Shown piece after piece: positions 48,797 to 58,754 of a stretch of 64,000 nucleotides of DNA; position 1 is the first letter of the stretch; each line of letters begins with the position of its first letter. A model generated the notes under the pieces. The model ran no database searches. It had not been told where the DNA came from and saw only the letters and a program-made list of their open reading frames with translations. The position numbers were made by a program, and so were the translations under genes. Origin of the DNA: Candidatus Bathyarchaeota archaeon (GTDB lineage Archaea; Thermoproteota; Bathyarchaeia; 40CM-2-53-6; DTGE01); assembly GCA_018396725.1 (NCBI GenBank), contig JAGTRC010000004.1:1-64000 (forward strand), read 5' to 3'.

Positions 48797-48896
48797 GCGG
48801 CCGTAGTCTAGCCTGGCCTAGGACATCGGCCCCCCACGCCGACGCACCGACACCCGGGGAGAGCCGGTAACCCGGGTTCGAATCCCGGCGGCCGCA
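48797..48896 (+). tRNA. tRNA-Gly(CCC) with a likely 25-base intron at 37/38
   Basis: Acceptor GCGGCCG pairs with CGGCCGC (48889-48895), A73, and CCA is encoded at 48897-48899. The D stem is GTCT/GGAC and the T arm CCGGG-TTCGAAT-CCCGG. The anticodon stem TCGGC (48826-48830) pairs with GCCGG (48863-48867). Between 37 and 38 a 25-base intron (48837-48861) fits a bulge-helix-bulge: C32-C35 pair with GGGG (48856-48859), leaving bulges CA|C and AG|A. The anticodon is CCC. Base 33 reads C instead of the nearly universal U. An alternative fold pairs TCGGC with GCCGA (48838-48842-type segment) and would put the extra bases in the variable region. Confidence 0.8.
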
Positions 48897-57939: not shown

Positions 57940-58058
57940 GCTCCGGTGGAGGCGGCTCCGCCGAATGTAGCCCGGCCAAGCATAGCGGCCTTATTTCCCC
58001 GGCGGAGGGGAAAGGCCAATCGAGCCGTTGATCGCGGGTTCAAATCCCGCCCGGAGCA
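57940..58058 (+). tRNA. tRNA-Glu(TTC) with two introns (10/11 and 34/35)
   Basis: Acceptor GCTCCGG pairs with CCGGAGC (58051-58057), A73; CCA is not encoded. Joining 57940-57949 to 57966 onward gives TGGTGTAGCCCGGCC, the usual archaeal Glu D arm, so a 16-base intron sits at 57950-57965: C5-T8 pair with GCCG, bulges GG|A and AA|T. A 27-base intron lies at 57993-58019: exon GGCC pairs with intron GGCC, bulges TT|A and AA|T, inner stem TTTCCCC/GGGGAAA. Spliced, the anticodon stem is GCGGC/GCCGT and the loop CTTTCGA (anticodon TTC). T arm GCGGG-TTCAAAT-CCCGC. Confidence 0.85.
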
Positions 58059-58307
58059 CTAATTTTAATTAAGCTTAGAAGGCCCTCACCTCGTTCTTCT
58101 CCACCGTTCTCTCCCCGTCCTCGCGTTTACGTTCAAAAGTCCTTAATCCTAGTCGATAGCGGCTTATATTTATGGATTTCAAGTCAACTTAGCCTAGAAT
58201 AGCTTCATGTAATCTTCGGCGAGAGAAAACACTACAGAACTTTACTCCTTGTAGGAGGCTTGGAGAAGAAGCTGATGAGGAGTAGGGGGTTTGAACTCGG
58301 GGTTTGG

Positions 58308-58421
58308 AGCCCCGGGCGGGCTTCGAACCCGCGGCCTACGGCTCTCCTTGGACGGCTTAGCCCATACAAGGATCGACCGGAGGCTGCCGTCCGTCGCTCT
58401 ACCGGGCTAAGCTACCGGGGC
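58308..58421 (-). tRNA. tRNA-Thr(TGT) with two introns (30/31 and 37/38)
   Basis: On the minus strand the acceptor GCCCCGG starts at 58421 and pairs with CCGGGGC; T73 is 58308 and CCA is encoded (58305-58307). D stem GCTT/GAGC, T arm GCGGG-TTCGAAG-CCCGC. Removing 58372-58390 (19 bases; helix CGAC/GTCG, bulges GG|A and AT|C, inner stem CGG/CCG) and 58344-58364 (21 bases, site 37/38) gives anticodon stem ACGGC/GCCGT and loop CTTGTAA with anticodon TGT. The 30/31 intron fits a strict bulge-helix-bulge; the 37/38 one is slightly relaxed (CTTG/CAAG with one extra base). Confidence 0.82.
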
Positions 58422-58658: not shown

Positions 58659-58754
58659 GCCGGGGTGGCTCAGCTGTGGTCAGACCCTTCCGAAGCGGGC
58701 TTAAGCGTTGGACTCATAATCCAAAGGTCGCGGGTTCGACTCCCGCCCCCGGCA
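58659..58754 (+). tRNA. tRNA-Met(CAT), elongator type, with a 20-base intron in the D arm
   Basis: Acceptor GCCGGGG/CCCCGGC, A73, encoded CCA (58755-58757). The anticodon stem-loop is TTGGA-CTCATAA-TCCAA (58708-58724) with anticodon CAT, and the T arm is GCGGG-TTCGACT-CCCGC. The D arm works only if 20 bases (about 58684-58703) are removed: GCTC then pairs with G|AGC. The site, between 22 and 23, has a weak helix GGTC/GGCT (two wobbles) with bulges AG|A and TA|A. The exact cut could shift by a base. The overall sequence resembles archaeal elongator Met rather than Ile2. Confidence 0.82.

Follow-up and report, generated by a model that had tools for sequence, protein, structure and literature searches.

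The window, by which we mean the whole stretch of 64,000 nucleotides analyzed, carries a tRNA-Thr(UGU) gene on its minus strand at 58421-58305, with the encoded CCA counted in. A ribose-5-phosphate isomerase gene is its neighbor; in a scan with that gene, the best 80 of 507 matches are a mix of bacteria and archaea, headed by Bathyarchaeota. The gene is read as three exons and two introns, all on the minus strand: Exon 1 (58391..58421) holds tRNA positions 1-30 (31 nt with 17a) and is delimited by the sequence and by alignment with spliced relatives; intron 1 (58372..58390) is 19 nt long and lies at position 30/31, where seven other genomes have introns of 19-26 nt; exon 2 (58365..58371), CCTTGTA, supplies positions 31-37 with the anticodon TGT and is identical across the eight two-intron genomes; intron 2 (58344..58364), of 21 nt, lies at position 37/38, where one-intron relatives also have an intron; and exon 3 (58305..58343) holds positions 38-76, with the T-arm, the 3' strand of the acceptor stem, U73 and CCA.

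The pre-tRNA gene (58305..58421) is identified by RF00005, by ARAGORN on the spliced form, and by homologues in the order. In an Rfam search of the whole genome (G000), it scores 46.5 bits against RF00005 (E 6e-9); it is absent from the window-wide Rfam gathering scan and was missed in the ARAGORN run on the window. When both introns are removed, ARAGORN reads a clean 77-nt tRNA-Thr(tgt) cloverleaf with the anticodon stem ACGGC/GCCGT, the loop CTTGTAA and an encoded CCA, and the acceptor, anticodon and T stems are all complete. The tRNA-Thr(TGT) pattern has a single match in the genome and, read by eye, its 24 RF00005 hits include one gene of this kind, a single-copy call that rests on searches of a genome 98.87% complete. 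With a full cloverleaf, a UGU anticodon and one copy, the locus is, as judged from sequence, the tRNA-Thr(UGU) gene of this genome, with two introns predicted to be spliced by proteins. A sequence-only reading had proposed a tRNA-Thr(TGT) gene with two introns, and both the anticodon and the introns are borne out by the spliced cloverleaf and the homologues. The span then given, 58308-58421, has the right start but stops at position 73 of the tRNA (58308), whereas the gene with CCA reaches 58305.

Intron motifs and their distribution

The bulge-helix-bulge motif of intron 1 (BHB1) has a four-pair central helix between CGAC (positions 25-28; 58393..58396) on the exon side and GTCG (58374..58377) on the intron side, with two three-nucleotide bulges, GG|A and AT|C, at the exon-intron borders. 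The outer helix is GAG/CUU and the inner helix is CGG/CCG, the latter closing a hairpin within the intron (58378..58389; CGG 58389-58387 with CCG 58380-58378). Among the eight two-intron genomes, intron 1 measures 19, 22, 26, 19, 19, 19, 19, and 25 nt, and the border reads CGAC GG|A ... GTYG A(A/T)|C throughout: CGAC is paired in all eight, by GTCG in five and GTTG in three. Over the outer (22-24/32-34), central and inner helices, 79 of 80 cells pair, and one pair of the outer helix is missing in G032. Eight cells are changed on both sides, and the inner helix carries two-sided changes, in two of its three pairs. Sliding the partner by 1-3 columns leaves at most 48.8% of cells paired. The number of cells paired, the number of two-sided cells and the covariation score are each matched by 1 of 500 shuffles; the count of two-sided pairs (two, reached by 279/500 shuffles) is not above chance, and the number of pair types is not unusual (357/500). 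The homologues and the pairing show that the intron at 30/31 is real and that BHB1 is a strict BHB, as had been claimed for a 19-base intron with CGAC/GTCG.

The motif of intron 2 (BHB2) is of a looser kind. Its central helix has four standard pairs, CUUG with CAAG (intron side, 58347..58350, facing CTTG at 58370-58367), and in G000 the 3' bulge has 4 nt vs 3 nt. In four other genomes (G027, G028, G032, and G033) the central helix is short of one or two of its four pairs. We therefore read BHB2 as a relaxed motif, slightly so in G000; the earlier description of a 21-base intron at 37/38 with a slightly relaxed motif agrees with the 4-nt bulge. The boundaries of both introns are supported by the homologue in G001, which has the 37/38 intron alone, and by the seven other genomes that have both introns.

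The comparison drew on 38 genomes from six families of the same order. A tRNA-Thr(TGT) pattern with free intron lengths matches in 29 of them; since the pattern required TTGTA, these matches are no independent proof of the anticodon. Both introns are present in eight of the 38 genomes (G000; G026 and G027; G028; G029, G030, G032, and G033). Seventeen of the 29 pattern-matched genomes have the 37/38 intron alone, as do G023-G025, which were read by eye, and four have neither (G031, G034, G036, and G037). The gene was not found in six of the 38 (G002, G005, G014, G020, G022, and G035). Intron 2 is thus found without intron 1 in 20 of the 32 genomes with the gene, and intron 1 without intron 2 in none of the 32. 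In G001, which belongs to the same family and is the nearest genome, the gene lacks the 30/31 intron and is interrupted only at 37/38, by 16 nt. A narrower two-intron pattern, which recovers 5 of the 8 known cases (missing G028, G032, and G033), so that diverged cases elsewhere would escape it, yielded nothing convincing among the 218 other genomes of the class or among 389 phylum-sample genomes outside the order. Single matches in G190, G354, and G486 were rejected, the matched letters being either no tRNA or, by chance, an ordinary Thr tRNA.

RNA polymerase subunit B gave a tree of 26 rows, from which G018 and the Geoarchaeota row G580 were left out. Its root was placed on three same-class genomes and Bathyarchaeum tardum; in an earlier polymerase tree, B. 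tardum clusters with G143, G178, and G038, all of the same class (98/98), which points to Bathyarchaeia as that class. The one-intron family f3 branches first, then f5, f4 with f1, f2 and f6; the fork uniting all families except f3 has a support of 83/87 and was drawn open. Read by eye, the tree suggests one gain of intron 1 after f3 and three losses, in G001, in f2 and in a subclade of f6. The 30/31 intron would then probably have been gained once inside the order and lost several times. The four f6 genomes without either intron (loci L172, L175, L176, and L177) form one clade of the tree, a pattern that would be expected if a spliced copy had replaced the gene.

Two readings that deny the proposed structure can be weighed against these data. 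It is most improbable that the cloverleaf or the intron borders are accidental, or that the gene is a decayed tRNA, even though ARAGORN also misses the seven two-intron homologues: The genome has no other tRNA-Thr(TGT) match and no second such gene among its RF00005 hits, the three stems and CCA are intact, and the gene is kept in seven other genomes with covarying intron helices. Just as improbable is a different 21-nt excision, at 35/36, after removal of intron 1, which would produce tRNA-Ser(UGA). ARAGORN does return this tRNA for the intermediate without intron 1, but the intronless relatives L172 and L175 are read by the same program directly as tRNA-Thr(tgt), and by eye the exons match these intronless relatives. 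The ends of the molecule are G1-C72, C2-G71, and U73, which are of the Thr type. On the relatives and these ends, the tRNA-Ser(UGA) reading was rejected.

Order of splicing

The genome encodes two subunits of a splicing endonuclease, in endonuclease-domain genes that lie apart from each other on contig 1. Best matches of the 187-aa protein are 3p1z_B (E 3e-48) and 3ajv_B (E 8e-47), chains that we take to be from Aeropyrum pernix. The 194-aa protein is a diverged relative, with best matches to other endonuclease chains (5x89_A, E 5e-24). Two subunit genes fit a predicted heteromeric (alpha-beta)2 enzyme. Passages in reviews describe this type as accepting relaxed sites (PMC4033280, PMC6379350, PMC4390854).

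Positions 22-28 and 32-34 take part in BHB1, 22-25 belong to the D-stem, 27-31 to the anticodon stem and 32-35 to the BHB2 core. Because these nucleotides overlap, BHB1 is mutually exclusive with the D-stem, the anticodon stem and the BHB2 core. In the model we favor, the heteromeric endonuclease would take out the 30/31 intron first, at a stage when BHB1, built from the 3' strand of the D-stem together with 25-28 and 32-34, would exclude the D-stem, the anticodon stem and BHB2. Once the exons are joined, the anticodon stem would be free to form, and since this stem would be the outer helix of the 37/38 motif, intron 2 would leave last.

The cost of forming these stems was modelled in the eight two-intron precursors with the acceptor and T stems held, at 37 C and also at 70 C; the folding leaves out the enzyme, modifications and tertiary contacts. 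At 37 C, with both introns present, forming the 5-bp anticodon stem takes 4.9-16.4 kcal/mol, vs 0.1-5.2 without intron 1, and removal of intron 1 lowers the cost by 4.8-13.2 kcal/mol in all eight genomes. At 70 C the corresponding ranges are 6.3-12.8 and 0.3-4.9. For the BHB2 core and the anticodon stem together, the cost falls from 5.0-20.6 to 0.2-7.4 on removal of intron 1, again in every genome. The cost of BHB1 at 37 C is 1.0-4.6 with intron 2 vs 0.6-5.4 without it; in these models, formation of BHB1 would hardly depend on intron 2. In four natural one-intron precursors used as controls, the stem costs 0.0-2.2 in three and 7.5 in G023 at 37 C, and by this last value the modelled costs are noisy.

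The alternative is that both introns are real and are cut in either order, with the heteromeric endonuclease accepting relaxed motifs that lack the outer helix. The behavior of the BHB2 core helix alone bears on this in both directions. In G000 its cost rises from 0.9 kcal/mol with both introns present to 5.9 once intron 1 is gone, which is opposite to expectation; in G026 it goes from 0.8 to 0.1. Because the core is cheap early in G000, an enzyme that accepts relaxed motifs could start with intron 2, and the two subunits fit the (alpha-beta)2 type, which is described as broad in specificity in parts of one review (PMC6379350). Against this, the core helix alone costs 7.0-12.5 kcal/mol in the full precursor of the other six genomes at 37 C, and we regard cutting in either order as doubtful. 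The sequence-only reading had suggested an ordered two-step splicing, on the ground that the first intron has to go before the anticodon stem can form. That part stands in so far as the stem is cheaper without intron 1 in 8/8 genomes; it is weakened by the BHB2 core in G000, which costs little beforehand. On these models, ordered splicing with 30/31 first is plausible. Taken as a whole, our preferred explanation, which we hold to be probably right, is that of two protein-spliced introns, with the 30/31 intron out first, the 37/38 intron last, and the 30/31 intron gained once.

A predicted pairing between intron 2 and the D-arm

In G000, GGGCTAAGC in intron 2 (58355..58363, minus strand) is the exact complement of GCTTAGCCC in the 5' strand of the D-arm (58404..58412, minus strand). 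The duplex has an energy of -18.4 kcal/mol (p 0.004 vs shuffled intron 2); in the folding ensemble 7.6 pairs are expected vs 2.0 with a scrambled intron (p 0.079). When intron 2 is shuffled 1000 times, the p value of the D-arm duplex is <=0.03 in six of the eight two-intron genomes (G028 0.103, G026 0.703). Among one-intron genomes p <=0.05 is reached in 5/20, all of family f2 and with weak duplexes (-4.6 to -5.4 kcal/mol). When seven exon regions are compared in the two-intron genomes, the 5' part of the D-arm is the strongest (mean z -2.19) and the 3' part second (mean z -1.39, including the strongest G026 value, -4.35). The region and ensemble analyses of one-intron genomes cover 19 of the 20 genes (G004 was missed in parsing); in these the 5' part has a mean z of -0.60, and two other regions are stronger (-1.13 and -1.23).

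The full-precursor ensembles give a similar picture. The expected D-arm pairs with intron 2 number 5.7-9.4 in seven of the eight two-intron genomes and 0.9 in G026, with p <=0.05 in six of the eight. In the 19 one-intron genomes p stays above 0.05 throughout, and more than 1.5 pairs are expected in just two of them, G001 (4.5) and G023 (6.9). In a hand-made register of six distinct rows, from which G026 was dropped and one bulged base of G027 omitted, 95.2% of 42 cells pair, with three two-sided pairs (5/500 shuffles reach three). Swaps of D-arm and intron between genomes gave p 0.009 for two-intron genomes (7 rows) and p 0.007 for one-intron genes; this test was dropped as support, as relatedness or composition alone can yield such values. 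We put forward the pairing of intron 2 with the 5' strand of the D-arm, predicted in 7/8 two-intron vs 2/19 one-intron precursors, as a hypothesis, because it had already been noticed in the data when it was tested, and because the rows share ancestry.

The predicted duplex is nested around BHB1 and stays in the same 7/8 genomes when BHB1 is forced. This arrangement leads to a tentative proposal, which we consider possible although rather unlikely, that intron 2 acts as an antisense strand to the D-arm (positions 10-19) and so as a folding aid in cis for the removal of intron 1. The duplex would hold the D-stem open, leaving 22-28 free for a BHB1 nested inside it, and intron 2 would leave only once the cloverleaf displaces the duplex. 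At 37 C, putting the native intron 2 in place of scrambled ones (30 each) makes BHB1 cheaper in six of the eight genomes and dearer in G033, with little difference in G026; most of these shifts amount to no more than about one standard deviation. The duplex likewise stays in 7/8 modelled intermediates without intron 1, where it would hinder the second splicing step. If true, the folding-aid role would explain why intron 1 is never found without intron 2. If the pairing is real, one tRNA intron helps to splice another, which would be a reason to keep an intron. Our literature search found no report of introns complementary to the D-arm, and the pairing would be the new part of the tRNA-Thr(UGU) case.

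Related systems and other interrupted tRNA genes

The multiple-intron tRNA genes of Thermoproteales were reportedly treated by Sugahara in 2007 and 2008 and by Tocchini-Valentini in 2009. The present gene belongs to another archaeal class, inferred to be Bathyarchaeia; unlike the Thermoproteales genes, its intron 1 has a lineage traced over four families, and a D-arm pairing is predicted for its intron 2. Archaeal tRNAs have up to three introns, according to parts of several reviews (PMC4033280, PMC6379350, PMC4390854). As far as portions of two papers describe them, the Thermoproteales genes each contain two or three short BHB introns, at the canonical 37/38 and at noncanonical sites, some of them nested (PMC3978253, PMC8450103), and the present gene resembles them in its short BHB introns, one at 37/38 and one at a noncanonical place. 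It is also stated there that the next BHB in an archaeal tRNA may form only after an intron leaves; for this order dependence one of them (PMC3978253) cites Sugahara 2007 and Tocchini-Valentini 2009. Order-dependent BHB formation is thus already described in archaeal tRNAs, and tRNA-Thr(UGU) adds another case. Our literature search found no paper dedicated to the order of splicing in archaeal tRNA, and for Bathyarchaeota or Bathyarchaeia together with tRNA introns it gave nothing on point. With the present case, the descent of a noncanonical tRNA intron is traced beyond Thermoproteales. Orthologues with two introns, one intron or none can be set next to each other, so that the order of splicing can be tested by comparing them.

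Two other systems invite comparison. The tRNA-Thr(GGU) of Caldiarchaeum subterraneum has two introns, at 24/25 and 45/46, and a one-intron version in the same population, as a section of the report describes (PMC3293823); it is likewise a two-intron tRNA-Thr, but another isoacceptor with other intron positions. In multi-intron pre-tRNAs of Cyanidioschyzon merolae, the noncanonical introns are out first and the 37/38 intron last, and an earlier RT-PCR study, as cited in passages of the same papers, found no intermediate with the anticodon intron gone first (PMC3978253, PMC9602550). C. merolae is a eukaryote, and its BHB motifs, from what these passages say, can fold independently, whereas those of the present gene share nucleotides.

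Other tRNA genes of the genome appear to be interrupted as well. Only 5 of the 24 Rfam hits (loci L001-L024) are full-length at 73-75 nt; many of the tRNA genes would thus be interrupted, and some of the longer hits may owe their length to the long variable arm of a Leu or Ser tRNA. As 24 hits fall short of a full set, more tRNA genes are probably hidden by introns. A probable candidate is a tRNA-Glu(TTC) at 57940-58058 (+) of the window, absent from the ARAGORN and Rfam lists, with putative introns at 57950-57965 (about 10/11) and 57993-58019 (between anticodon bases 34 and 35); spliced by hand, it reads tRNA-Glu(ttc). At 58659-58754 (+) lies a tRNA with a CAT anticodon, by eye an elongator Met with an apparent D-loop intron, which ARAGORN calls Arg(gcg) in the window and Leu(aag) under other settings. 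The tRNA-Thr(GGT) of the genome (L027 80-121 and upstream) has apparent introns after the 5' strand of the acceptor stem and at 37/38. By eye, the tRNA-Gly genes (48797-48896 (+); L009, L010) have introns and C for U at position 33.
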